A stretch of DNA of 64,000 nucleotides from Thermodesulfobacteriota bacterium (GTDB lineage: Bacteria > Desulfobacterota_D > UBA1144 > Nemesobacterales > CSP1-2): positions 33,736-97,735 of the forward strand of contig DATMAT010000037.1 in the NCBI GenBank assembly GCA_035559815.1, in the 5' to 3' direction. The notes under the pieces were generated by a model. It searched no databases, was not told where the DNA came from, and saw only the letters and a program-made list of their open reading frames with translations. Position numbers and translations under genes: made by a program. Shown one piece after another: positions 37,804-51,626 of the stretch. Position 1 is the first letter of the stretch; every line of letters starts with the position of its first letter.

Positions 37804-39213
37804 TCAGCGCCGGGAGCTTAGGCGAAGAACTAGCTCGAATCTATTACCCACTTGGAGTTTAGAGAATATTTTAGCCAGATGGTTCTTCACTGTATTTTCA
37901 CTCATAAACAACTTATCAGAAATTTGCCTATTGCTTAGACCTTCTAAGACAAGCTGCACTATCTCCTTTTCTTTCTTGGTAAGTTTATCATTCAATGACC
38001 GCTTGAATTTTCCCAAGGGCACAAGACTATTCAATATTTTAGTCATGACATTTGCATCCATCCAGAGTTCGTCTCTACTTAAGGCCTTAGCCGCCTTAGG
38101 AAGGAGCTCTATACTAGACTCATATGCCATATACCCTCGAACCCCTAAATGTAGCCCATTCAGGACTAATTCTTCATCTAAATTATGAAAAAAAAGGAGT
38201 ATCTTTGTCTGAGGACGTTTTTCTCTGATTAATTCGAGCATCTCCATAATGTTCAAGTTGGCTATGTCTGTGTCTAGGAACAAAACGTCGGGTTTCTTTC
38301 GGCCCAAAATTGGGACGACATCAGAATGGTTTAAAGCATGAGCTACCATCTCGACGTCCGTTTGATTCTCGATTATTCCCTCTATTACATCTTTAATCAA
38401 AGCATAGGGACTGGCCACCATCAACTTGATGCTTTTCACCCCCGTCTTATCAACAGTGACCATTTTATGCGGTTTATCCACACCTGGCTCGAAGCTAAAA
38501 ACTTCACGTAAAACTAAGACAGTACCCAAGCTGTTGCCATCTTCATCACGGACTAGAGAGGACCTCAAGCCGATAAGGCTTTCTCTTCCGCCTTTAGTTA
38601 CCACCGAGGTATGTTTTGCCTCATCCTCTCCGGTTACTTCTAAACTCGTTTTAAAAAATTCACCTAAATGTTTACCGAAAGCTTCTTCCGCCGTACAGCC
38701 CGTGAGAACCTCAGCCGAAGGATTCATGAAAGTTACAAGGCTATTGTCATTAGTAATGATTACTCCGTCGCTCATGTTCTTAAGCATGGAAAAAAGCAGC
38801 CTACACTCCTGCCATAACTTCTTTTCCTTCTCATGTTTAGAAAGTGCTATCTCAATCGAGAAACGCAAATCTTTATGTTGAAAAGGTTTAATTATATAGC
38901 CGACTGGCTCGGTCATCTTTGCCCGTTCCAGTCTACTCAGGTCCGCATATGCAGTGAGATATATTATTGGTATGTTGAATCGTTCGCGGATCTTTTTTGC
39001 GGCCTCTATACCGTCCATATTACCCTTTAAAACAATATCCATCAGTACTAAATCTGGTTTTACCTCCGAAGCTTTTTGGATAGCATCTTTTCCAGAAGAA
39101 ACTGTAGTAACTACGGAATAGCCCAACTGTTCCAACCTGTTCTTTATATCCCTGGCTACAAGTTGTTCGTCTTCTACTATCATTATTCTTCTTTTTCTCA
39201 TCGCCATGCCCAT
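37804..39213 (-). CDS. Response regulator: REC-PAS-REC-LuxR HTH
   Basis: A 469-residue transcription factor with unusual order. A first receiver (residues 1-125) carries the phospho-acceptor Asp in DLVLMDIVL and the Lys in IIKPFQ. A PAS domain follows (about 140-250, [16 protein letters not shown]). A second, NarL-like receiver (about 262-385) has Asp in DVLFLDTDI. The C-terminal LuxR HTH (about 400-465) has [20 protein letters not shown] and [18 protein letters not shown]. It lies 207 bp downstream of the large histidine kinase on the same strand, its likely partner. Targets are unknown. Confidence 0.88.
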
Positions 39214-39420
39214 ACCCGTCTAAATTACCCTCCTTTTGCCTACCAAACTCAATAACACTTTTGTAGGATTTTAGGACTAGTATAGATAAGCTTTAAGATT
39301 TCGTTTAAAAATATCAGAAGGACTAGCGGAGATGAACAACAGTATCTTTGGGTTGATTAAATCTGTTCATTCAAGCCGATTTATTATTGGGTTAGTATGC
39401 CCACGTTCCATTATCTTCAA

Positions 39421-42400
39421 TTACAGCTCCTCAAATTTAATTTTGAATGAAGTTCCGGCATCTCTATCAACTTCGATAATACCCCCTAGTTGCTCCACCA
39501 GATCCAGCACCAATTGCAACCCCAGTGAGTTTGTATTTCGCAAATCTAAATCTTTTGGCAAACTACATCCATTGTCGCTGATAATCAGGGTAAAACAGGG
39601 ATGTGCTGATTTCCCTTCCACACCGTTACCGGCAAGCATTTCCACACGAATTTCACCCTTCCTTCCCCTAGGAAAAGCGTGCTTCATCGAATTCGAGACT
39701 AGCTCATTGATTATCAAACCACAAGGAATTGCCGTATCTATATTCAGGAAAATATTATTTACATTAACTTTTAATTTAATAGCATCCGGGTTTATATCAT
39801 AAGAGTAGAATAAGTTAGTCAGCAGATTTTGGACGTATTCCGAGAAGCTGATCATGGCCATATTATTAGATTGGTACAATTGTTCGTGAATCAGTGCCAT
39901 TGACCGGATGCGGTTTTGAGTTTCATTGAACATTTCAATAGCCTTTCTGCTCTTTGTATATTGAGATTGAATATTAATCAAACTGGAGATAACCTGCAGG
40001 TTATTTTTTACTCGATGGTGAATCTCTTTTAGGAGCACTTCTTTCTCCCTGAGAGACTCCTTGATCTGTTCATCCACTCGTTTACGCTCGGTTATGTCCC
40101 TAGAAGCGATAACCCCTCTAATTTCCCCTTTTTCTGTCCGATATGGCTTGCCGGTACTTTCAAGCCAAAGCCAATTTCCATCTTTATGCTTGAACCGGAA
40201 AACCGCACTTCCCGATGATATAGTTTCCATTGCATTGGCAAATTCCCCCATGACAGCGGGAAGGTCGTCCGGGTGTATATATTCAAAAACCTTTGTGCCA
40301 ATTAGTTCATTACTCTCATACCCTAAAGCATCTTTATGTTTGGGACTAACATATAAAAACCTACCATCAATACTAGTTTCCACTATAAGGTCGTAAGTAT
40401 GCTCCACCAGGGTGCGGTATTTTTCTTCGCTAACCCGTAAAGCTTTCTCTGCCTGAACCCGCCAGAGGATTTCCTTTCTAAGCTCCTCGTTTTTCCGGGA
40501 TAGTTCCAAGGTACGTTCCCGAACGCGCTTTTCTAGTTCCTCTTTTGACTCTTGAAGCGACTCTGCTTGTCTAGCGTTGTTTATTGCGGCTATTATCTGC
40601 TGAGCTACTATTTCCAGCAATCTCAATTCCTCCTCATCAAATGCGTTTTTTTCGAAAGAGGTTAGAATTAAGGCCCCTGTCGTCTGTCCTTGAAAACTGA
40701 TCGGCATGCTCAAGTAGCTTTTTATACCTAGTTCTCTTCCGGCTTGGCCAAGGATAGTATCTTTATCTACATCACTAACATACCTAGGCTTACCTTCCAT
40801 TATAGTCTTCCAAGTAATACCTTTTGGATAGGCAATTCTTCCAGCGCGCTTAATATAGCGGTCGTCGAATCCCCTATAGGCCTTCAAAACCGCTTCTTGT
40901 CCCTCGACTAGGTAGATTGCAACATTATCAAGCCGGTCTATCTTACCACTCATCACCTCAACCGCGTTCTCCAGAACCTCCTGAAGGTTAATCGACTGGT
41001 GAACGCTACGAGTCACCGTACTGATAATAGCCTCGTAACGGTTCTTCTTCGATAATTGGGCAAGACTTTCTCTGAGTGCATATTCAGCCGCCCTGCGATC
41101 GACGATTTCCGCCTGAAGCGCTTTGTTGGTCGTAGCCAGCTGAGCAGTACGCTCTTGAACGCGAATCTCCAACTCGTCCCGGGCCTTACGTAGTGCCTCC
41201 TCCGATCGGCGTAGCAACTCCACCCGTTTGGCATTATTTATTGCCACCTCTATTTGCCTCACTACAATCTCAAGGAGATTCAATTCCTCATCGTTGAAGG
41301 CGTTTTTCTCGAACGAATTTATACCCATAGTTCCGACTGTCTTGCCCTCAAAATTAATAGGCATAGATAAGTAGCTCTTTATTCCTAGCTCCCTCCCGGC
41401 GGGGCCAAGAAAATTATCATTTTCCACATCGGCACAATAAATCGGCTTACCTCCTATAATGGTTTTCCAGGTAAGCCCCTTTGGAAATTGTATTATTCCG
41501 GCCCGGCTAATGTAACTATCGGTTAGGCCTTTATGCACTCTAAGAACTGCTTTATCACCCTCTACCAGGTAAATTCCAACAATGTCCGCTTTATCAATAT
41601 TTTTGCTCATGGCCTCAACAGCATTCTCCAGGACTTCTTCTAGGTTAATCGACTTATGAACACTTTGAGCAACAGAACTAATAATAGTTTCATATCGATT
41701 CTTCTTGGACAACTGGTTAAGACTTTCACGAAGTGCCTTCTCCACCCGCATGCGATCGGTGATATCTAGAATTAACGCATAGAACCCCTTCACCTGCCCA
41801 TTATCATCAAAATGAGGTACATAAGAAACATTCACGTACCTTGCCTCAACATCATTGCAGGGTATGACGCTGTCAAAGTTTATTGCCCGACCCGATAATG
41901 CAGTTTCAACCTTGTCCTTAAGTTTAGCGTATACATCCTCTCCTAAAATTTCTTTCATATGCTTTCCGGTTATTTCTTCTTGCGGGTATCCGAACCATTT
42001 TTCATATGCTTTGTTGTTGAAAAGATAACGTTCCTGTGCGTCAATATAGGAAATACAAACCGGAAGAGCATCGGTCAGAAGACGCAACTGCTCTTCTCTT
42101 TCTCGCAATTTATCCTCCGCCTTTTTACGCTCGGTTATGTTCTCCACAGTTCCCTCGTAGTACAAGACCATCCCGTCTTCTCCCCGAACCGCTCTTGTGC
42201 TCTCAAGGACATAAACAAGAGAGCCATCCTGCTTTACCCAAGCCGATTCCAACCCACTTATTTCGCTTTTCTGCTCCATTAACTCCTTAAACTTACTCCG
42301 TGGGTAATTAACGTCGAATCCTTCCTCCTCTAAATTACGTGAGACCAACTCTTCAAAAGAAGTATATCCCAGCATTTGAACTAAAGCGGGGTTTGCCATC

Positions 42401-43530
42401 AGAATCCTTCCTTCGGGCGTGGTGCGGTAAATTCCTGAAGGGACATTCTCGAACAAATCTTTGTAACGTTCTTCACTTTGTCTGAGTGCCTCTCTTCGCC
42501 TTTTCATCTCCTCGATTATCTTTGCCTTCGCTATCGCCGTTGCTATTTGATTACCGAGAGATAGGAGAAAATCCAACTCCTGACGATTAAAAGAGTTCTT
42601 CTCATATCGTGAAAAATCAACTGTCCCTATACTATCACCGTCCAATTTAATCGGTATGGATAGTAACGCACGAGCCCCCAGAGCTTTATCCTCTGGGCCT
42701 GTGGGAGCCAATGAAGCTGAGGCATCTTCATAAAAATGCGGCTCACCTTTACTAATCACTTCCCAGGTGATTCCTGTTCCGCAGGGGATTCTGGAAGCTC
42801 TTTCTAAATACTCCGCGGGATATCCCAGATGAATTTGTAATACGGCCTCCTTTTTGTCCCCATACTCTTCAACCAAATATATTGATAAAAGGTCTATGAA
42901 CTTCAAATCTCGGATGATTTCCAATACAGTCTGGAACACCTGGTTCAAATCAACGGATTTATGGAGTTGCTGGGATATCTCGCTCAATATCGATAGATAT
43001 TTCTTTCTCTCCATAAACTCTTCAGTTTGTTTTGCCTTGGCTATGGCTGTAGCCAGCAGGTCCCCAACCATAGAGAGCACTTTTATCTCATCTTCATCAA
43101 ATTTACGTTCTGTATAACTGATGAACCATATTAGACCAATGGTCTTTTGCTCGATGCGGACAGGGATTCCCAGAAGATTGCGGCTTCCCATACCTTTAAA
43201 CGCATCCGCAGCATCGGGCTCCTCCAGAATATCTTCGATATACATAACCTTTCCTGCTCGGATCGCCTTCCAGGTTAAACCTTCAGCAAAAGGAATTCTG
43301 CTCGCTTGTCTGACGTAGTCTCGTGGAACATTTTTATGGGCTTCGAGCACGGCTTGTCTTTTTTCTTCGTTAACCAAGTAGATCATGACCATTTGTACAC
43401 TATTTAGTTGAGTAGCCAATCCCAAAGCAATTGAGTAGATCTCCTCAAGTTTACTTGCTTGATTAAGCGCCCTAATAACCTCGGCTAATATATCTAAGTC
43501 CTGGTTATAGCCCTCTTTTAATCTCAACAC
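39421..43530 (-). CDS. Multi-GAF/PAS sensor histidine kinase (HisKA_2 type)
   Basis: A 1369-residue soluble sensor without clear membrane helices. Order: GAF (about 10-165), GAF (185-345), PAS (350-475), PAS (480-600), GAF (607-780), GAF (828-1005), PAS (1040-1155), then HisKA_2 with phospho-acceptor motif LKEIHHRVKNNLQV (His at about 1171-1172) and a HATPase domain (N box NELVSNSMKHAF). The two later GAF units with their coiled-coil lead-ins are a 221-residue internal duplication. The ATP-lid Gly motif reads DNGCSLP where DNGxGLP is usual. The response regulator follows downstream; the peptide cluster is divergent upstream. Confidence 0.9.
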   Translation of the reverse strand: MLRLKEGYNQDLDILAEVIRALNQASKLEEIYSIALGLATQLNSVQMVMIYLVNEEKRQAVLEAHKNVPRDYVRQASRIPFAEGLTWKAIRAGKVMYIEDILEEPDAADAFKGMGSRNLLGIPVRIEQKTIGLIWFISYTERKFDEDEIKVLSMVGDLLATAIAKAKQTEEFMERKKYLSILSEISQQLHKSVDLNQVFQTVLEIIRDLKFIDLLSIYLVEEYGDKKEAVLQIHLGYPAEYLERASRIPCGTGITWEVISKGEPHFYEDASASLAPTGPEDKALGARALLSIPIKLDGDSIGTVDFSRYEKNSFNRQELDFLLSLGNQIATAIAKAKIIEEMKRRREALRQSEERYKDLFENVPSGIYRTTPEGRILMANPALVQMLGYTSFEELVSRNLEEEGFDVNYPRSKFKELMEQKSEISGLESAWVKQDGSLVYVLESTRAVRGEDGMVLYYEGTVENITERKKAEDKLREREEQLRLLTDALPVCISYIDAQERYLFNNKAYEKWFGYPQEEITGKHMKEILGEDVYAKLKDKVETALSGRAINFDSVIPCNDVEARYVNVSYVPHFDDNGQVKGFYALILDITDRMRVEKALRESLNQLSKKNRYETIISSVAQSVHKSINLEEVLENAVEAMSKNIDKADIVGIYLVEGDKAVLRVHKGLTDSYISRAGIIQFPKGLTWKTIIGGKPIYCADVENDNFLGPAGRELGIKSYLSMPINFEGKTVGTMGINSFEKNAFNDEELNLLEIVVRQIEVAINNAKRVELLRRSEEALRKARDELEIRVQERTAQLATTNKALQAEIVDRRAAEYALRESLAQLSKKNRYEAIISTVTRSVHQSINLQEVLENAVEVMSGKIDRLDNVAIYLVEGQEAVLKAYRGFDDRYIKRAGRIAYPKGITWKTIMEGKPRYVSDVDKDTILGQAGRELGIKSYLSMPISFQGQTTGALILTSFEKNAFDEEELRLLEIVAQQIIAAINNARQAESLQESKEELEKRVRERTLELSRKNEELRKEILWRVQAEKALRVSEEKYRTLVEHTYDLIVETSIDGRFLYVSPKHKDALGYESNELIGTKVFEYIHPDDLPAVMGEFANAMETISSGSAVFRFKHKDGNWLWLESTGKPYRTEKGEIRGVIASRDITERKRVDEQIKESLREKEVLLKEIHHRVKNNLQVISSLINIQSQYTKSRKAIEMFNETQNRIRSMALIHEQLYQSNNMAMISFSEYVQNLLTNLFYSYDINPDAIKLKVNVNNIFLNIDTAIPCGLIINELVSNSMKHAFPRGRKGEIRVEMLAGNGVEGKSAHPCFTLIISDNGCSLPKDLDLRNTNSLGLQLVLDLVEQLGGIIEVDRDAGTSFKIKFEEL

Positions 43531-43778: not shown

Positions 43779-44063
43779 ATGGATAATCTTAAAACCTACC
43801 AGAAAAACCCATCTGTAGTATGTACCGAGCTGGACGATGGCGCAATTCTTTTGAACCTAGATACTAAATATTATTACAACTTGAATGAAACTGGGCTAAG
43901 GATTTGGCAGATCCTGGATGAAGTAGGAACCCCACTGCAGATTGCAAAAAAGCTGGCTTCCGAATATGAAATAGATTACGAAGTGGTAAGAACAAGTGTT
44001 GTCAGGCTGATAAGTCAATTAGAATCAGAAGGATTGGTTATAGAGAAGTATTGTGTTGATTAG
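43779..44063 (+). CDS. PqqD-like RiPP recognition element protein (lasso B1-like)
   Basis: A 94-residue winged-helix PqqD-family protein, the fold that binds leader peptides of ribosomal peptides (RRE). The pattern is complete: CTELDDGAILLNLDTKYYYN, LNETGLRIWQILDEVGTP, and ASEYEIDYEVVRTSVVRLIS with a final helix. As a stand-alone protein next to a B2-type peptidase and HPr-kinase-like gene it corresponds to the B1 component of lasso clusters or the PqqD member of HPr-kinase-related systems. Expected role: binds the leader of the 44272-44391 peptide and delivers it to the processing enzymes. Confidence 0.88.
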   Translation: MDNLKTYQKNPSVVCTELDDGAILLNLDTKYYYNLNETGLRIWQILDEVGTPLQIAKKLASEYEIDYEVVRTSVVRLISQLESEGLVIEKYCVD

Positions 44064-44141
44064 AGTGAGGAATAACTTTATCCTTTCCCACCGTCCCCAA
44101 ATGCACCAGCACATAGTCTTAGTATGTTAGATAATATTAAG

Positions 44142-44164
44142 ACTTTTGTGCTAGTCTAAAATAA
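44142..44164 (+). promoter_or_regulatory. Shared 22-bp motif, copy 2 (upstream of precursor gene)
   Basis: ACTTTTGTGCTAGTCTAAAA lies 108 bp before the peptide start and 29 bp before the small upstream frame. It shares the ACTT..GT.CTA..C.AAAA pattern with the copies at 43681 and 49536. Confidence 0.4.
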
Positions 44165-44192
44165 TCTTTTTTCATAAGGGGAAACAATACCA

Positions 44193-44285
44193 ATGTCTAC
44201 TTGTTCTTCAATCTCCACTAGTATTAAGCTTAATATTAGCAAAATTATTTCCAGGAAAGGAGGTGATATCAATGAACCGCGATGA
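44193..44285 (+). other. 30-codon upstream frame overlapping the precursor start
   Basis: ATG 44193 follows AAGGGG at 11-bp spacing. The frame (MSTCSSISTSIKLNISKIIS and onward) ends at TGA 44283-44285, 11 bp past the peptide ATG, so its translation would run through the peptide ribosome site. It could be a translational coupling leader or chance; it has no recognisable homologue. Confidence 0.3.
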
Positions 44286-44391
44286 AAAGAAAAGGGTATT
44301 TGTAGAGCCGGAGTTGCTAAAATGCGCTGACTCATTAGATGTCCTTACGATAGGTGGTTATCACGGTAGCAGATATAAATCGCCATATTAA
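44272..44391 (+). CDS. Putative RiPP precursor peptide, lasso-like leader
   Basis: A 39-residue peptide behind AAAGGAGGTGAT (44256-44267), a near-perfect complement of the 16S 3' end, 8 bp from the ATG; this suggests high expression. The leader holds F10-x-x-P13-x-L15 followed by A19 and T26, close to the lasso leader rule YxxPxLxxxGx5T, the region B1/RRE proteins bind. Thr26 would be the conserved -2 Thr, placing cleavage after Ile27. The predicted core, Gly28 to Tyr39 (GGYHGSRYKSPY), starts with Gly but has Arg, Tyr and Lys at positions 7-9, so no Asp/Glu is available for a lasso ring. Ser33 and Ser37 are candidate kinase targets. Confidence 0.75.
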   Translation: MNRDEKKRVFVEPELLKCADSLDVLTIGGYHGSRYKSPY

Positions 44392-44714
44392 GGATAAGTA
44401 TAAAAAATGTTTCAAATATGGGGTCGGGTTTATTGTATAGGTGGTTCTTAATTTTATGACGGTTATGAGCAATTTAATAATATTAAGAAGGGTAATATAT
44501 TTGATTTCTTTTCCTTAATATTCGATTTATATATCATAAGTTAGATAAATATTTGATTCGATGTTTTGCACTTTAATTTTTTTTTGAAACAGCCTGATCC
44601 GAGTTTAGCAGTGAGCAAGAACTTAATCGCTAAAGTTTATACATTTAAATCTTTAAAAGCAGTAATAAACTTAAATTAACTTGATTTAATACTGCTTTAA
44701 GGAGCGGAGAATAA
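44392..44714. other. AT-rich spacer of 323 bp between precursor and kinase genes
   Basis: Strikingly AT-rich. It contains a 14-codon frame (44407-44451) of doubtful significance, an inverted repeat TTTAGC/GCTAAA near 44613-44637, and a strong long hairpin at 44656-44698 just before the kinase ribosome site. No clear intrinsic terminator with a GC stem is seen after the precursor. Confidence 0.5.
44656..44698 (+). promoter_or_regulatory. Hairpin upstream of the HPr-kinase-like gene
   Basis: AAAGCAGTA (44656-44664) pairs perfectly with TACTGCTTT (44690-44698), with further A-T pairs inside the 25-base loop. It ends 2 bp before the ribosome site of the kinase gene. It might act as an mRNA processing or stability element separating the abundant precursor message from the enzymes. 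Confidence 0.4.
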
Positions 44715-45692
44715 TTGGCCTATTTGACGAAGGGCTCTTACCTCGTACAGGGCATAAACATACATATTCTTTGTCAATCTAACCTGCAATCTTTGCTATT
44801 CAACTATTTTAATTCGCTTTATAGAGGAAAAAAACGCTTGGATATAAAGCCGCTGGAATTTGAACTTGATATAGTGGATGAACCCCCTTCTCTCCCTACT
44901 GAGTCCACTCCGGTGATAAAGTTACCCTCTATCACATCCTATAGAAACGGGGAGAAGATATATTTCCGCTCAAAAGATGGCTCCATGATTTCGTTAGACC
45001 CCGCTACAAGAAATGTAAGAGGATTTCTGAAGGCGGAAGCTTTAAAAGACTCTATGGAGTTGTTCTCGTTGGTATGTGCACCTTTTGTAGAAACCCTTAA
45101 ATATCATGGACTTTATTCTCTTCACTCCGCCGCCTTATATGGTGATGGAAGGGGATATTTGATTTCTGGAAACAGCGGATGCGGAAAAACCACCATTGCT
45201 CTGAGCTTGGTCTCCCAGGGTTTCAAATACGTTTCTGACGATTTCCTCATTCTCGAAGAGCTAAATGGGGAAATAATTGTCAATTCATTATTTAGAAGCT
45301 TTAATCTAGATCAAAAGGTAGCCGAACGACTTCCAGAGGTGGCATTGAGAGAAACCTTTGAATTTTCCGATGGGTTCAAGGTTTCGGTGGATATATCTCA
45401 AATTTTTTTAGGTTCATTTATTCCCTGTGCCAGACCGGACGTGATAATTTTTCCTCGCATCACACCAAACAGAAAAAGTCAGATTTATCCACTTAATAAA
45501 AAAGATGTATATGCCCGATTGCTCAAGCAGATTATATTAGCCATCGATAACGAAGTGTCTAAAAAACAGCTAGGCACACTTGAAAAACTGGTCAAGCAAA
45601 CGATCGGGTTCGAGCTTTTAAGCGGCAGGGATATATATGAAGAGCCTAGAAAACTCGTTGATCTTCTCAAGCATATAAATCTTCAAAATTGA
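44715..45692 (+). CDS. HPr-kinase-like protein (HprK-related, RiPP-associated)
   Basis: A 325-residue protein whose C-terminal half is an HprK-type P-loop kinase domain: LHSAALYGDGRGYLISGNSG, Walker A GNSGCGKTT (152-160) and the acidic SDD (174-176) after KYV. The N-terminal 110 residues are specific to this branch. In paeninodin-type lasso clusters such kinases phosphorylate a Ser of the precursor; related kinases are also grouped as HPr-rel systems with PqqD proteins and nucleotidyltransferases (recalled, not checked). No HPr protein gene is nearby, so the peptide at 44272 is the likely substrate. TTG start behind GGAGCGGAG. Confidence 0.85.
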   Translation: MAYLTKGSYLVQGINIHILCQSNLQSLLFNYFNSLYRGKKRLDIKPLEFELDIVDEPPSLPTESTPVIKLPSITSYRNGEKIYFRSKDGSMISLDPATRNVRGFLKAEALKDSMELFSLVCAPFVETLKYHGLYSLHSAALYGDGRGYLISGNSGCGKTTIALSLVSQGFKYVSDDFLILEELNGEIIVNSLFRSFNLDQKVAERLPEVALRETFEFSDGFKVSVDISQIFLGSFIPCARPDVIIFPRITPNRKSQIYPLNKKDVYARLLKQIILAIDNEVSKKQLGTLEKLVKQTIGFELLSGRDIYEEPRKLVDLLKHINLQN

Positions 45693-45718
45693 GACCGTGA
45701 TTTCTCCCAATAAGGCTT

Positions 45719-46246
45719 ATGATATCTATCACAAATAGCGATTTCGAGAAGATGAGGAAATCGATGAGTGGCAAGCAAAGCTCATTGGACAAAATGAGGA
45801 AAAGTTTCAAATCATTCGAAGATGTTACATTATTTGTTCAAATCTTTCTATTGATATCGATTCTACCTCTCCTGATAAAGTTCCTGTCTATTCAAAAACT
45901 TCTCAAGTTACTCACACCAAAAGAGGTAAAATCTTATCAAAATCAAGAGAGAGCCAAGGAAATGGTGGTGAAGTATACGGATTACATACTTGGTCGTAAC
46001 TACTGGATGTACAAAAAGATTTGTCTCAAAAGATCTTTGATTCTCTATCACTTCTTGAAGAAATTAGGAATGAACGTCAGAATATGCTTCGGTGTAAAAT
46101 TACCAGACGGGAAGATAAAAAGTAAACTAGAAGGACATGCTTGGCTCGTATATCAAGGCGATATCTTTCTGGAGAGGGATGTAGAAATGACTAAATCATA
46201 CAAGATAACCTACTGCTTCCCGGAAATGAGTGAACAAATTGCTTAG
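45719..46246 (+). CDS. Lasso-type B2 leader peptidase (transglutaminase-like)
   Basis: A 175-residue protein of the lasso biosynthesis B2 family (transglutaminase core 3). The N terminus has a hydrophobic helix (about 38-58) and a typical KLLTPKE stretch. The catalytic Cys is in KKICLKRSLILYHFLKKLG (Cys102), followed by NVRICFGVKLPDGK, the His in LEGHAWLVYQGD (His140) and an acidic residue close behind (Asp148). In lasso systems B2 cuts the leader after binding through B1. Its triad looks intact, so leader removal here is likely. Confidence 0.88.
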   Translation: MISITNSDFEKMRKSMSGKQSSLDKMRKSFKSFEDVTLFVQIFLLISILPLLIKFLSIQKLLKLLTPKEVKSYQNQERAKEMVVKYTDYILGRNYWMYKKICLKRSLILYHFLKKLGMNVRICFGVKLPDGKIKSKLEGHAWLVYQGDIFLERDVEMTKSYKITYCFPEMSEQIA

Positions 46247-46267
46247 CCTAACTCTGGAGAGAGGTTT

Positions 46268-47557
46268 TTGGAAACTTATATGAACCTATCAAATGAAGAC
46301 AGGATGTTGCTCTATTGCGGCCAGACGGAGATTTCCGAAACTACGAGGAGTCGAATTAAAGCGCTCGTTAGCTCGCCACTGAACTGGGATAATCTCCTAG
46401 ACTCCGCCTATTGGCATGGGGTTGCTCCCCTTCTTTACCATAATATTAAGCAAATGGGAGAGGGTAACTATATACCTCCAGATTTGTTGAATAAACTCAA
46501 GAACACATATTATGAAAATTTGGCCAAGAATATGTACTTATATTCTGAATTGGGGAAAATTCTGGAGGCGTTCAACCAGAATGGAATAAAAGTCATCGTA
46601 CTAAAGGGTGCGGCTTTGGCCGAGGCTGTTTATGGAGACATCGCTCTAAGACCTATGAACGATATCGACCTTATGGTCAAGAAAGAGGACCTCCCTACCG
46701 CAGAGAAGATAATGTCAGATTTAGGTTATACCTTCGCTGGAAAAGAACTCCCTGAATGGTACAGAGAAAACCATTTTCATGTTGGATACCTAAGTCCAGA
46801 TAAGTCTATACTGGTCGAACTCCATTGGCATATTGCCAGAAAATCTCATCCCTCTAGAATCGCCATCATCGACTCCGGCCTCATCGAAGGGTTCTGGGAA
46901 AGGGCGAAAACATCAGAGATTGCCGGGACTAAGGCATTAGTACTTTGCCCCGAGGATCTGCTTCTTCATCTTTCACTCCACTTTCTCAAGCATCGTTTCA
47001 TGAGCAATAGTTTCAGGGGTACTTTTACGAATAGAAACGCGCTAATACAGCTATGCGACATCAGTCAAATCCTCAAGCATTATGGTAATGAAATCAACTG
47101 GACCAGGCTTGAGCAAGAAGCGGATAAGCACGGGATTAAGAACCTAGTCTTTTCCATTATCCATATTGCAGAAGAACTGGGGAGCGGTGAATCAGTCTGT
47201 CATGAAAATTCGAATGGCCCGAACCCGGAAAATCTTGATTGTGAACTACTCGAGCTAATACATAAAAAAATACTGGCCAAGGAAGAGCGCATACCGGCTG
47301 TTTTTTTCCAGTCTCTGGCCGCAGATAGTTATAAATTGAAAGTACGCATCCTCCTCGATAGCTTATTCCCCCAGCCGAGTGTCCTAGCAAGGAAATATTC
47401 CCTGGATCCGCACTCGCTCAAGTTCTACCTATACTATCTCTTCAGACCTCTCGGCGTATTAATAAAGCATGCTAGGCTAATCAGGAAATTCTGGGGGGCT
47501 AATAAAGAAATCAGGGAGGAAGTTATTCTCAGCAAGTGGATAAATTCGAGAAATTAA
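46268..47557 (+). CDS. Nucleotidyltransferase-family protein of the peptide cluster
   Basis: A 429-residue protein of the nucleotidyltransferase family seen in lasso and HPr-kinase-related clusters. The active-site pattern is IKVIVLKGAALAEAVYGD followed by LRPMNDIDLMV, with the DxD metal ligands at Asp132 and Asp134. A long helical C-terminal part follows (CPEDLLLHLSLHFLKHRF). The family's reaction in these clusters is not established; nucleotidylation of the peptide or of the kinase product is inference. TTG start behind GGAGAGAGG, 21 bp after the B2 stop. Confidence 0.82.
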   Translation: METYMNLSNEDRMLLYCGQTEISETTRSRIKALVSSPLNWDNLLDSAYWHGVAPLLYHNIKQMGEGNYIPPDLLNKLKNTYYENLAKNMYLYSELGKILEAFNQNGIKVIVLKGAALAEAVYGDIALRPMNDIDLMVKKEDLPTAEKIMSDLGYTFAGKELPEWYRENHFHVGYLSPDKSILVELHWHIARKSHPSRIAIIDSGLIEGFWERAKTSEIAGTKALVLCPEDLLLHLSLHFLKHRFMSNSFRGTFTNRNALIQLCDISQILKHYGNEINWTRLEQEADKHGIKNLVFSIIHIAEELGSGESVCHENSNGPNPENLDCELLELIHKKILAKEERIPAVFFQSLAADSYKLKVRILLDSLFPQPSVLARKYSLDPHSLKFYLYYLFRPLGVLIKHARLIRKFWGANKEIREEVILSKWINSRN

Positions 47558-47608
47558 AGTGTTAATCGGGAATCGAGTCTTATTCAACATGGGAAATACA
47601 TAACATCG

Positions 47609-48655
47609 GTGAGACCTCCTTTGTCCTATGCAATCGAAACACACGATCTAACAAAAAACTTTCCGGTAATAAAAAGATACCGTGAAATGATCGTGCATCC
47701 TTTCCGGAGAAAAGAAATTACCGCTCTCCAAGAAGTGAACATTCAAGTAAGAAAAGGTGAGTTGTTCGGTTTATTAGGACCGAATGGCGCCGGTAAGACT
47801 ACACTCATAAAGATCCTTTGTACCCTGGTTCTGCCCACCTCCGGAAAAGCATTCGTAGGAGGTTTAGATGTCACAAAGGAGGGAAGAAGCATAAGAAGAA
47901 TCATCGGATATGTCATAAGCGACGAGAGGAGTTTTTATTGGCGTCTTACCGGGAGGCAAAATCTGAAATTCTTCGCCAAGCTTAACAATATACCCAATAG
48001 TGAGGCGGACACTAGAATAGACAGAGTGCTCGAGTTTCTGGAGCTTGCTGACAATGCCGAAAGGATGTTCAAGGACTATTCCACCGGGATGAGGCAAAAA
48101 TTAGCCATTGCTAGAGGGCTTCTAACAAACCCGGAGATTATTTTCATGGATGAGCCAACTAGAAGCCTGGACCCGATCACCGTACAGAATTTAAGAACCC
48201 TAGTGAAGGATAAAATAGTCGGAGAAGAAAAAAAGACTGTGGTTTTTGCCACCCATAACTTACAGGAAGCTCAGGACATTTGCGACCGGGTGGGAATAAT
48301 TCATAAGGGGCAATTGAAAGCGGTCGGCTCTGTGGAAGAGATAAGGAGAAAACTGGGCACAGATAAAAAGTATGTGATGAAACTGAAGGCACTGGAATAT
48401 GAATCGCTCAAAAAGATTATTAGCGTATCCTCGGTCAGAAAGATCAGGTTCATGGAAAATGGCTCTCATCCCGACTACATTCAAATTGAGGTTGAAACTG
48501 CAGACGGAGATGGAAGCATACCCAGTTTAATTAAACAAATTGTCGACGCCGGCGCTAAGGTCTATTCCCTTCATGAGGAAGAAACCTCCCTGGAAGAGCT
48601 TTTCTCAAGGGTTATAGACAGAGGCGACCGAATAAGTGGAGAATCAATATCATGA
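47609..48655 (+). CDS. ABC transporter ATP-binding protein
   Basis: A 348-residue ABC-2-type exporter ATPase. Walker A GLLGPNGAGKTTLIKIL (about 54-70), signature YSTGMRQKLAIARGLL, Walker B IIFMDEPTRSLDP and the H-loop VVFATHNLQEAQ are intact. It has a C-terminal extension of about 95 residues, as in NatA/CcmA-like members. GTG start 52 bp after the nucleotidyltransferase; its stop overlaps the permease ATG (ATGA). Placed with the peptide genes, it probably powers export of the mature peptide and immunity. Confidence 0.9.
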   Translation: MRPPLSYAIETHDLTKNFPVIKRYREMIVHPFRRKEITALQEVNIQVRKGELFGLLGPNGAGKTTLIKILCTLVLPTSGKAFVGGLDVTKEGRSIRRIIGYVISDERSFYWRLTGRQNLKFFAKLNNIPNSEADTRIDRVLEFLELADNAERMFKDYSTGMRQKLAIARGLLTNPEIIFMDEPTRSLDPITVQNLRTLVKDKIVGEEKKTVVFATHNLQEAQDICDRVGIIHKGQLKAVGSVEEIRRKLGTDKKYVMKLKALEYESLKKIISVSSVRKIRFMENGSHPDYIQIEVETADGDGSIPSLIKQIVDAGAKVYSLHEEETSLEELFSRVIDRGDRISGESIS

Positions 48656-49464
48656 CTTTCCTTGAAAAGCCACTGGCCTTTCTCTGGAGAGATTTGCTAG
48701 AGGAATCGAGCTACAAGTTTGCATTTGTAATGCAGCTTTTTGGGATATTTACCTCCACCTTGGGGCTTTATTTCCTTTCAAAGCTTCTCGGCGACGCTGG
48801 GGTATCATATCTTGAGCCTTATGGCGGCGACTATTTCTCATTCGTACTCATAGGAATTGCTTTTTACAGCTATCTGGCGGTGTCCATGCAGAGCCTTTCC
48901 GGCAGCATTAGAGAAGGACAGGTGCTCGGGACACTGGAAGCCCTCCTGATAACTCAGACGGAGATACCGACGATTATCCTTTCTTCATCCCTATACAGCT
49001 TCGTATGGGCATCACTTAGGGTCTTGGCGTACTTATTATTGGGAGTCTTCGCTTTTGGGCTTAATATCGATGGAGCAAACATACCCGGGGCTTTACTGAT
49101 TCTGGCTCTGACTATCGTTTCTTTCAGCAGTCTTGGAATCATTTCGGCAAGTTTTATCATGGTACTAAAAAGAGGAGACCCGGTTAGTAGAATATTTACG
49201 GGCCTTTCTAGCTTGTTTGGAGGGCTTTATTTTCCTATCTCCGTCCTCCCCGACTGGTTACAGACAATTTCTTACCTCCTGCCCGTAACCTATGCTCTTG
49301 AGGCGATGAGATTATCCTTGCTTAAGGGATATGCCCTGAGCGAGCTAATGCCTAATATCTTAGTATTGTCTATTTTTGCCGTTACTACCCTACCCCTTAG
49401 TATAGCCATCTTTGCATATGCCATAAAAAGAGCGAAGAGAGATGGAACCCTCACTCAGTACTAA
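48652..49464 (+). CDS. ABC-2 type transporter permease
   Basis: A 270-residue inner-membrane protein with six hydrophobic segments in the ABC-2 pattern. The conserved FTGLSSLFGGLYFPISVLPD element precedes LLPVTYALEAMRLSLLKG. The first four bases overlap the ATPase gene, so the pair forms one exporter. It is the last gene of the peptide cluster; a copy of the shared motif and the beta-helix gene follow. Confidence 0.88.
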   Translation: MTFLEKPLAFLWRDLLEESSYKFAFVMQLFGIFTSTLGLYFLSKLLGDAGVSYLEPYGGDYFSFVLIGIAFYSYLAVSMQSLSGSIREGQVLGTLEALLITQTEIPTIILSSSLYSFVWASLRVLAYLLLGVFAFGLNIDGANIPGALLILALTIVSFSSLGIISASFIMVLKRGDPVSRIFTGLSSLFGGLYFPISVLPDWLQTISYLLPVTYALEAMRLSLLKGYALSELMPNILVLSIFAVTTLPLSIAIFAYAIKRAKRDGTLTQY

Positions 49465-49775: not shown

Positions 49776-51626
49776 TTGGCCCGGTCCGAGGGGAAAACTA
49801 ATTGTAGAATAAAAAAAACTTTTTTTTATCACTGCATAAAAGTTTTTATTTATACTCTTTATGTCCTGTTTATACCTAAAGCAGTCTATGCCGCCGTTTT
49901 TAATGTTCCCTCCGGAAACGTACCTGCCCTGGTCGAGTCAATCAAGGTAGCTAACACCACTGCCGAAGATGACACCATTTTTCTAGAGGCTGGAACCTAC
50001 ACCCTGACAGGAGTAGACAACACAACCGACGGCGCTAACGGATTACCCTCCATAATCAGCAACATAGAAATCATCGGAGACGGACCCGGCGTAACCATTA
50101 TTGAGCGCGATTCAACCGCTGAACCTTTTCGTATCTTTCATATCGCCGATACCGGCACCCTGATTTTAGAAGGCTTAGCTATTACCGGTGGTCTCGTAGA
50201 ATGCTGTGATATCGGTGGAGGTATCTTTAACGACGGATCCTTAGTCGTAACGAACAGCGTAATCTCCGGCAATTCTGCCGAGTTCGAAGGAGGTGGACTA
50301 GCCGGCAATGGAACAGCAACAATAATCAACAGCACCGTTTCCAATAACTCCGCACAGGATGGAGGCGGGATCTTTGGCAGCTCCGTGGATATTACGAGCA
50401 GTATTATTTCAGATAACTTTGCCCAAGGTTTTGGCGGCGGTATAGACGGAACGGTGAATATCAAGGACAGCCAGATATTGAATAACCAAGCCGGTTTCTT
50501 GGGCGGAGGGATATTCGGTACTGTAACTATGAAAGACAGTCTGGTCGCCGGTAATAGTTCGGATTTTAGGGGTGGCGGCATTGCTAATATCGGGACATCC
50601 AACATCACGAATACCACTATATCCGGTAACGGTGCAGAGTTTTCGGGTGGGGCGATATCGAACTCCGACTCGTTGACTCTGACTAATAGCTCCATCTACG
50701 ACAACTCCTCCGGCTTTGGTGCTGTCGTAGATAACACCGAGAGTCTTTTGGTCGTGTTGAATAGCACTATTGCCGACAATAACGGCGGTGGAATTGAAAA
50801 CGTAGACGCTATCACCACTATAATCAACAGCACTATATTCAATAACGAATTCGGGGTCGATAACTTTAACGGCTCTGAGTTTTTTGGTGTCGTGGAGATA
50901 CAAAACACCATCATTGCCCTTAATAATTTAGGTGATTGCTTTGGCCCTATCACCTCGCTTGGGAATAATCTCATCGGTGACAGCTCCGGTTGTGACCTTA
51001 GCACCGGCCCGGATGACCGGTTTGGAGACCCGGGCCTCGGAGATTTCACCGATGACGGTACTCCCGGCAATGGGCATTACCCCCTTCTTGCCGACAGTCA
51101 GGCAATCAACGCCGGTAACCATGATGTTTGCTCAGATATACCGATACTGGCTGCTGACCAGATTGGGCAGAAAAGGGTAGGAGTTTGCGACATTGGGGCA
51201 ATTGAATCCATAATCAACATTACTGATATAAACGGGATTGTTAAATTCGAATCCTTGCCAAAGACAATCCAACAGATAAAAAAGAAAAAAGCATGTCCGG
51301 GCACTTATCCTTGGAGATTCAGGTTCCGGGCTAAGCTCACAAACATCAGCGATAATATGCTCTCTGATATAGTGGTTAGGCTCAAGGAAAACTCGCCGAA
51401 GGATGCCAAAATAACGATCACGGTCCTGAATAAGGCAGGGTATAAAGATGCTTTACTCGAGCCAGGAGAAAGTGCACAGGTCAGGTTTGAATTATGTTTC
51501 AAGCAGAAGTTTAACAGCATTGGCCTCGACTTATTCAAGGCGGCGCTTGGCTTATCTCACCTGGCTGATTTGGTAGATGTGAAGGGGTCGGTGACAGAGC
51601 CTAATGAAGATGAAAATACTCTCTAA
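49776..51626 (+). CDS. Secreted right-handed beta-helix (polymorphic outer-membrane-like) protein
   Basis: A 616-residue exported protein. A basic N terminus and long hydrophobic signal (to about residue 39, KAVYA|AVFN) precede a CSLREA-like start (VESIKVANTTAEDDTIFLEA). About twelve parallel beta-helix rungs follow with GGG-I-x-N and N-S-x-I-S-x-N patterns (about 110-390). The section ending DQIGQKRVGVCDIGAIE is the usual end of choice-of-anchor Q proteins. The last 120 residues form an Ig/DUF11-like domain. TTG start behind GGAGG at 10-bp spacing. Probably a surface or adhesion protein. Confidence 0.82.
   Translation: MARSEGKTNCRIKKTFFYHCIKVFIYTLYVLFIPKAVYAAVFNVPSGNVPALVESIKVANTTAEDDTIFLEAGTYTLTGVDNTTDGANGLPSIISNIEIIGDGPGVTIIERDSTAEPFRIFHIADTGTLILEGLAITGGLVECCDIGGGIFNDGSLVVTNSVISGNSAEFEGGGLAGNGTATIINSTVSNNSAQDGGGIFGSSVDITSSIISDNFAQGFGGGIDGTVNIKDSQILNNQAGFLGGGIFGTVTMKDSLVAGNSSDFRGGGIANIGTSNITNTTISGNGAEFSGGAISNSDSLTLTNSSIYDNSSGFGAVVDNTESLLVVLNSTIADNNGGGIENVDAITTIINSTIFNNEFGVDNFNGSEFFGVVEIQNTIIALNNLGDCFGPITSLGNNLIGDSSGCDLSTGPDDRFGDPGLGDFTDDGTPGNGHYPLLADSQAINAGNHDVCSDIPILAADQIGQKRVGVCDIGAIESIINITDINGIVKFESLPKTIQQIKKKKACPGTYPWRFRFRAKLTNISDNMLSDIVVRLKENSPKDAKITITVLNKAGYKDALLEPGESAQVRFELCFKQKFNSIGLDLFKAALGLSHLADLVDVKGSVTEPNEDENTL

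Follow-up and report, generated by a model that had tools for sequence, protein, structure and literature searches.

Seven genes at positions 43779–49464 of a 64,000-nucleotide stretch of DNA from a Thermodesulfobacteriota bacterium (contig DATMAT010000037.1; the whole stretch is hereafter called the window) probably direct the production of a linear, exported, ribosomally synthesized and post-translationally modified peptide (RiPP), which is trimmed by a lasso-type B2 leader peptidase, modified by a kinase and never cyclised. All seven genes lie on the + strand, in the order PqqD-family protein, precursor peptide, HprK-like kinase, B2 peptidase, NTP_transf_5 nucleotidyltransferase-like protein, ABC transporter ATPase and ABC-2 permease. 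Protein families were assigned with Pfam and NCBIfam profiles. Five further genomes, four of them from Nitrospirota, have the six enzyme and transport genes in identical order and orientation, together with a precursor gene and without a cyclase; we refer to these clusters as type 1. The initial annotation of the window had described six genes and a short peptide gene running in one direction, without an asparagine-synthetase-like cyclase, and had read them as a separate system making a leader-cleaved, modified, exported linear peptide. Position, strand and order were all borne out; the contig has no match to Asn_synthase (PF00733), and none of the six type-1 loci has a cyclase. The reading thus survived the tests that might have refuted it, and is partly supported overall. 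It draws on gene order, intact motifs, a conserved leader, co-occurrence of the genes and absence of the cyclase, all of which were observed directly.

The precursor gene most likely starts at an ATG at 44272, preceded by AAGGAGGTG and giving a peptide of 39 residues; an alternative GTG at 44263 is less likely. The peptide reads MNRDEKKRVFVEPELLKCADSLDVLTI-GGYHGSRYKSPY, and comprises a 27-residue leader (44272–44352) with the pattern F-V-E-P-E-L ... L-D-x-x-T-I and a 12-residue core, GGYHGSRYKSPY, predicted from the sequence and ending at the stop codon (44353–44391). A hidden Markov model (HMM) of the leader was built from the six type-1 precursors of the five other genomes. The window precursor ranked first with this model among the 1864 stop-to-stop open reading frames (ORFs) of at least 20 codons in the window (14.8 bits, E = 0.002), compared to 6.6 bits for the next window ORF and 10.2 bits for the best of 20 base-shuffled windows. 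Since the best score in the window was obtained with a profile made from other genomes, the precursor looks real. Residues K7, F10, E12-P13, L15, K17, L22-D23 and T26 are invariant in the seven type-1 precursors of the six genomes.

A database search with the alignment of these seven peptides returned 20 peptides at E ≤ 10, all of them at ≤ 1.2e-6 and the window's own among them, and after removal of four duplicates the type-1 set comprised 23 distinct precursors. All 23 leaders keep F/Y-x-E-P-x-L-x-K-...-L-D-x-x-T, so that a conserved leader is joined to a variable core. Long cores of 24–32 residues are found in 17 precursors, of which 15 have [FY]N-x-x-G-S near the start and 14 have CPLG[FY] near the end; the other six, including that of the window, have short cores of 8–12 residues, and the core in genome G001 has 8. 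A Ser is located 5–8 residues past the conserved Thr in 20 of the 23. In the window peptide it is at core position 6 (Thr+7), a placement shared by 12 of the 22 other type-1 precursors.

The five other type-1 clusters are in G001 (locus L048), which belongs to the same family as the window's genome, in Nitrospiraceae SURF_66 (locus L041, genome G060), and at loci L086, L087 and L088, in three other members of the SURF_66 phylum. The contig scan gave at least three loci, of which only L041 entered the counts. Of 57 genomes searched in the window's phylum, 2 had a kinase match of type-1 strength (E < 1e-100), as did 4 of the 395 from the phylum of SURF_66. All six type-1 kinases fall in one clade of 32 rows, which also holds 26 database sequences and has a support of 100/100, in a tree that includes 28 of 76 database homologues; the close kinase relatives that are named belong to metagenome-assembled genomes of Deltaproteobacteria/Thermodesulfobacteriota. 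The precursor gene lies between those for PqqD and the kinase at five of the six loci and upstream of PqqD at L088; L086 has a second precursor gene, upstream, and L087 an extra 75-residue kinase-like ORF.

The 94-residue PqqD-family protein (43779–44063; PF05402, 61.9 bits) is a stand-alone, B1-like RiPP recognition element (RRE), and its closest solved relatives are the lasso RREs TbiB1 (E = 2.6e-9) and TfuB1. The genome has no other stand-alone PqqD match; its second PqqD match is part of an 842-residue radical-SAM/methyltransferase protein. The kinase (44715–45692, 325 residues, TTG start) scored 32.2 bits against Hpr_kinase_C (PF07475), slightly below the cut-off of 33.3. An AlphaFold2 model of it (pLDDT 91.2) matched phosphoenolpyruvate carboxykinases and HprK/P in the PDB, and by sequence the kinase profile matched four HprK entries only among solved structures. 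The B2 protein (45719–46246, 175 residues) matched Transglut_core3 with 40.6 bits and the lasso B2 model NF033537 with 51.3 (cut-off 33), and no solved relative was found for it by sequence; the genome otherwise has one partial transglutaminase-like match. The catalytic motifs that had been described as intact in these two enzymes proved to be invariant: His137, the P-loop GxGKT (155–159) and Asp175-Asp176 in an alignment of 61 kinases, and Cys102, His140 and Glu152 in one of 27 B2 proteins. The NTP_transf_5 protein (46268–47557, 429 residues; PF14907, 221.8 bits) has a KGAAL...DID motif that is present at all six type-1 loci. The DrrA-like ATPase (47609–48655, 348 residues; ABC_tran, 105.2 bits) and the DrrB-like permease (48652–49464, 270 residues; PF01061 (ABC2_membrane), 62.9 bits) are 57–66% and 70–72% identical, respectively, to their counterparts at L041 and L048. 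Plasmid searches with the window kinase and with type-2 kinases (see below) gave weak, distant relatives only (4 records each), and a plasmid search with B2 gave no match.

Two published groups of systems share much of this gene set. The linear polyphosphorylated peptides (LPP) of Paenibacillus alginolyticus, published in May 2026 (PMC13381572), are described as the product of lpp genes encoding an RRE, a kinase, an NTP transferase, an MsbA-like exporter and LppS, with no cyclase; the product is linear and is multiply phosphorylated at S3 by LppK. The two systems are alike in their stand-alone RRE, HprK-like kinase, NTP transferase, exporter, conserved leader with variable core and lack of a macrolactam cyclase. 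They differ in the peptidase, which is a SipW-like signal-peptidase enzyme in LPP and B2 in the window, and in the exporter, which is MsbA-like rather than an ABC-2 pair. LPP is phosphorylated at core Ser3; the window core has Tyr at position 3 and Ser at position 6. LPP is cut after Thr, so that its Ser is three residues past Thr. The LPP leader, YxxPxVLxHQxIxFETxxS, also differs from the type-1 pattern FxEPxLxK...LDxxTx, and in the window leader, FVEPELLKCADSLDVLTIGG, only the aromatic-xxP core, one leucine and the Thr correspond to it; the window leader is therefore not of the LPP kind.

In the phosphorylated lasso peptides, namely bsf of Bradymonas (PMC10368454) and paeninodin and pseudomycoidin (PMC9266682), the likeness lies in the precursor, B1, B2 and an HprK-like kinase that acts on the precursor. 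The bsf cluster additionally has a nucleotidyltransferase, an ABC transporter and a YxxPxL leader (PMC10368454). BsfK is reported to phosphorylate core Ser3, helped by B1, and BsfB2 to remove the leader (PMC10368454), while PsmN attaches a hexose to phospho-Ser (PMC9266682). The window has the discrete B1 and B2, the YxxPxL leader pattern and, at the predicted cut, the Thr(-2) that mark lasso systems, with Phe as the aromatic residue and a spacing to Thr one residue longer than in type 2. Unlike the window cluster, the phosphorylated lasso peptides have the asparagine-synthetase-like cyclase C and a ring acceptor.

More distant clusters with a related kinase are common in Nitrospirota. At E ≤ 1e-15, the kinase profile matched 68 genomes out of the 395 in the Nitrospirota group; in a broad sample of 386 genomes, searched at 1e-25, it matched 16, the window's genome and G001 among them. 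We annotated 67 kinase genes on 64 loci, comprising chosen best matches and many lesser ones, and typed them by their neighbors within 5 kb, the full 5-kb flanks being covered for 50 of the 67. Seven kinases were classed as type 1 by an ABC-2 permease, among them one, at L134, that does not belong and was removed: it lies outside the type-1 clade, and neither PqqD nor B2 is among its neighbors within 5 kb. Type 2 comprises 43 kinases, with PqqD near 37, NTP transferase near 39, B2 near 35 and an MsbA-like exporter near 24. The 17 type-3 kinases, defined by radical SAM genes, have B2 in 11 cases, PqqD in 7 and NTP transferase in 5. Leader profiles, seeded from precursors at these same loci, gave 86 matches among the 13,080 small ORFs of the 64 loci; 80 of these were on the same strand as a kinase and no more than 4 kb from it, and the other six were 5.3–8.1 kb away. 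A precursor was found beside all seven type-1 kinases, 38 of 43 type-2 kinases and 8 of 17 type-3 kinases.

The type-2 leaders have Y(-17), P(-14), L(-12) and T(-2), the spacing of lasso leaders, and Thr+4 becomes the third core residue if the cutting rule of lasso peptides is applied. This residue is Ser in 36 of the 61 parsed type-2 precursors (one match was unparsed), Leu in 13, Tyr in 10, and Ile and Gly in one each. By analogy, the type-2 core Ser3 would be the counterpart of the residue phosphorylated by BsfK and LppK. Three type-2 loci (L101, L142 and L145) have two kinase genes and several tandem precursor genes with differing cores.

We infer that the window peptide is phosphorylated, cleaved and exported. 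The PqqD protein would hold the leader by its F-x-E-P-x-L stretch (positions -18 to -13) and offer the precursor to both the kinase and B2; a hydroxyl of the core, most probably that of Ser6, would be modified by the kinase; the NTP_transf_5 protein may then place a nucleotide or sugar-type group on the phosphate; B2 would cleave after T(-2)-I(-1), and the ABC pair would export the linear product. Several observations weigh against this scheme. The cores at L048, L088 and in P0095 have no Ser, and the latter two have no Thr either, which disfavors a simple Ser-kinase story: either Tyr or another group is modified, or another precursor is used, or the kinase has a different role. Core position 3 in the window is Tyr, and S3Y variants were reportedly modified by neither BsfK (PMC10368454) nor LppK (PMC13381572). 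Among the type-2 precursors, 25 of 61 lack Ser at Thr+4. The third conserved B2 residue is Glu, and the AlphaFold2 model of B2 (pLDDT 64) was too weak for use. The NTP_transf_5 step is the weakest of the scheme, because deletion of LppN is reported to have changed nothing in the LPP study (PMC13381572).

A second locus of this kind, on contig C52 of the window's genome, groups a radical SAM gene and a related kinase with a precursor gene (L044, 8696–8917) whose core is built around FFGGF; neither PqqD nor B2 occurs within 5 kb. As the only stand-alone PqqD and the only B2 of the genome are in the window, the C52 peptide, if trimmed by B2, would need the window's pair. Both loci adjoin genes for large, secreted-looking beta-helix or repeat proteins, found by Pfam/NCBIfam and C-terminal domain searches. 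One lies directly downstream of the window cluster (49776–51626, + strand), in which its membership is uncertain, and two are on C52 (L044, 704–3988 and 6510–8630). They share a C-terminal domain of ≈110 residues, which in this genome occurs only beside the two kinase/precursor loci. Across 17 chosen genomes, there were 19 copies in seven, and none at 1e-5 in the other ten. These seven are the ones in which a kinase of the FFGxF branch was found (six annotated loci, plus L064 of G382), named for cores such as FFGAF at L090 and FFGGF at L089. Fifteen copies lie within about 10 kb of an FFGxF kinase, and a sixteenth is 25 kb from such a kinase on one contig with it; of the remaining three, one belongs to the window and two are on other contigs. 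This co-occurrence is an association and not an independent test, because loci of this kind supplied the sequences for the domain model.

These proteins raise the alternative that a protein or surface polymer is the substrate of the kinase and transferase, the small peptide being not the main product but a regulator or carrier. The position of the domain beside both loci of the genome, its presence on the contig of the FFGxF radical-SAM branch in all seven searched genomes that have the branch, and the three type-1 cores without Ser would fit this. However, no such protein was found at the other five type-1 loci in the DNA examined, G001, G060 and G393 lack the domain at 1e-5, and a leader and core combined with B2 is the design of a processed peptide. 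We consider this alternative unlikely.

It is less likely still that the peptide is trimmed and exported with the kinase as a mere binding partner, NTP_transf_5 adding the only modification. The cores of L088 and P0095, which have neither Ser nor Thr, would be explained in this way, but the His, P-loop Lys and Asp-Asp residues are invariant in the 61 kinases, and exchange of these residues is reported to have impaired BsfK (PMC10368454).

A lasso peptide closed in trans by a cyclase encoded elsewhere would account for the lasso-like PqqD, B2 and Thr(-2) leader, and Asp or Glu is present at core positions 7–9, where a ring acceptor would be expected, in 5 of 23 type-1 and 29 of 61 parsed type-2 precursors. 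The 12-residue window core, however, has no Asp or Glu for a lasso ring, at positions 7–9 or anywhere else, and the core in G001 is only 8 residues long. The genome does encode three full-length Asn_synthase proteins, on contigs C33, C12 and C51, together with a weak, partial 24-bit match on C3. All three exceed the AsnB cut-off (TIGR01536), and score 255, 260 and 66 bits against the lasso cyclase model NF033535, for which the cut-off is 525. Two matched best as exopolysaccharide (EPS) amidotransferases, below that model's cut-off, and the third as AsnB; the former two are among glycosyltransferase-like or polysaccharide-type genes, as judged from ORF sequences only.

The relatives gave the same picture. 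PF00733 was searched in 17 whole genomes, in 15 of them at 1e-20, and a match within 10 kb of an annotated kinase was found in G264 alone. It was also the only one within 5 kb of any of the 67 kinases: an AsnB/EPS-amidotransferase-like protein, 4.4 kb away at L094. The type-1 genome G393, whose completeness is not stated, had no match at 1e-20, G001 had one protein, matched in two pieces, and G060 had one full-length match and three weak ones. Matches of ≈476–507 residues beside type-2 loci that first appeared to be Asn_synthase were rejected: that at L100 is PurF-like by Pfam, and the rest resemble it in length and N-terminus. No lasso cyclase was so named among the best 60 of the 465 records of a plasmid search for Asn_synthase. 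The absence of a cyclase is carried by the curated PF00733 model on the 17 genomes, since our own Asn HMM had no lasso positive control. Thus, no co-conserved lasso cyclase was found elsewhere in the genome, nor do related clusters all carry one, either of which would have told against the initial annotation. On the grounds of profile scores, gene context and relatives, we rejected a distant cyclase as very improbable.

Membership of the HPr-rel-A system of NCBIfam is the least credible alternative: the same three protein types (PqqD, HprK-like kinase and nucleotidyltransferase) are annotated together in such a locus in Sphingomonas, but the PqqD protein scored 18.6 bits against a cut-off of 35 (TIGR04353) and the kinase 39.4 against 200 (TIGR04352), and no B2 is annotated in that locus in the PLSDB gene tables, which are incomplete. 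HPr-rel had been named at the outset as a near relative, which these scores do not support. The SynChlorMet proteins, which the PqqD and HprK-like proteins match weakly, were likewise rejected, with 30.9 bits against 100 for ScmD (TIGR04248) and 18.6 against 125 for ScmC (TIGR04249), and the cluster has no radical SAM gene.

The linear, never-cyclised peptide therefore remains our preferred reading, and its leader peptidase appears to vary between loci. Free S24/S26-like proteins lie beside kinase-like and PqqD genes at L204 (9416–10024, with radical SAM) and L206 (3850–4416, without). At L205 (6549–8219) and L207 (1492–3174), a signal-peptidase-like domain is N-terminal in NTP_transf_5 proteins, with borderline Pfam scores of 23.1 and 24.4 against 23.3. 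These two loci have PqqD, radical SAM and an ABC/permease pair; L205 has a weak kinase match, and the L207 contig begins inside PqqD. The signal-peptidase-like profile had no match in ORFs of the 64 kinase loci, L049 or L051, and the B2 profile had none in L204–L207. Because neither profile matches the other's loci, B2 and the signal-peptidase-like enzyme look interchangeable, in a small sample in which the signal-peptidase loci were found by searching for that enzyme. The archaeal-type signal peptidase model TIGR02228 had no match at 1e-3 in G000, G001, G425 or G439, and its matches in G060 and G393, at loci L204–L207, are on contigs other than that of the type-1 cluster.

A broader proposal, which we put forward tentatively as somewhat short of an even chance, is that a superfamily of B2-trimmed, never-cyclised, phosphorylated RiPPs spans several groups, including Nitrospirota and the window's phylum. 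The leader peptidase in it would be exchangeable, B2 or signal-peptidase-like and even fused to the nucleotidyltransferase. In the window's genome a single RRE/B2 pair would serve two precursor families, that of the window and that of the FFGGF peptide on C52, which would be modified by radical SAM and linked to secreted beta-helix proteins with a dedicated C-terminal domain.

Several neighboring genes were also noted. Divergently upstream of the cluster, on the - strand (37804–43530), are a LuxR-type response regulator with a PAS domain and a 1369-residue multi-GAF/PAS histidine kinase, which are possible regulators of the cluster. Upstream of the type-1 cluster in G001 are genes for a PqqD-PGA_cap (CapA-like) fusion, Gluconate_2-dh3 and a GMC oxidoreductase (L048, 184–1773, 1845–2471 and 2475–4157), which could provide extra tailoring; the PGA_cap domain belongs to the family of the MslH epimerase. 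In G005, PqqD and B2 genes lie alone between Iso_dh and lactate/malate dehydrogenase genes (L049, 8446–9157); this B2 is 49% identical to that of the window, and no precursor was found there by motif.

The initial annotation had suggested that the full gene set might be undescribed. With the publication of LPP in May 2026 (PMC13381572), this no longer holds for a cyclase-less RRE/kinase/NTP-transferase family as such, and applies only to the B2-bearing form and the phyla in which it occurs. A literature search of titles and abstract openings, with subscription literature largely outside its range, found no report of B2-bearing, cyclase-free kinase clusters among the papers listed. According to its authors, LPP does not occur outside Bacillota, and the string "Nitrospir" is absent from the main text of that report (PMC13381572); the present clusters extend cyclase-free kinase RiPPs beyond the stated limit and uncouple the lasso leader peptidase from the formation of the lasso ring. 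Genome mining that requires an Asn_synthase gene would presumably overlook such clusters. Of the almost 8,000 proteins that RRE-Finder reports for its discrete lasso RRE model, only ≈4,000 are accompanied by peptidase and cyclase; lasso-model RREs without these two were thus visible but are treated as possible false positives. The RiPP identifier list in PMC12710340 names PF00733 and neither B2 nor these kinases. The 80 precursor candidates beside kinases, together with the metagenomic ones, are natural precursor–kinase pairs with which the purpose of the phosphopeptides, and what NTP_transf_5 adds to them, may be tested in Nitrospirota.

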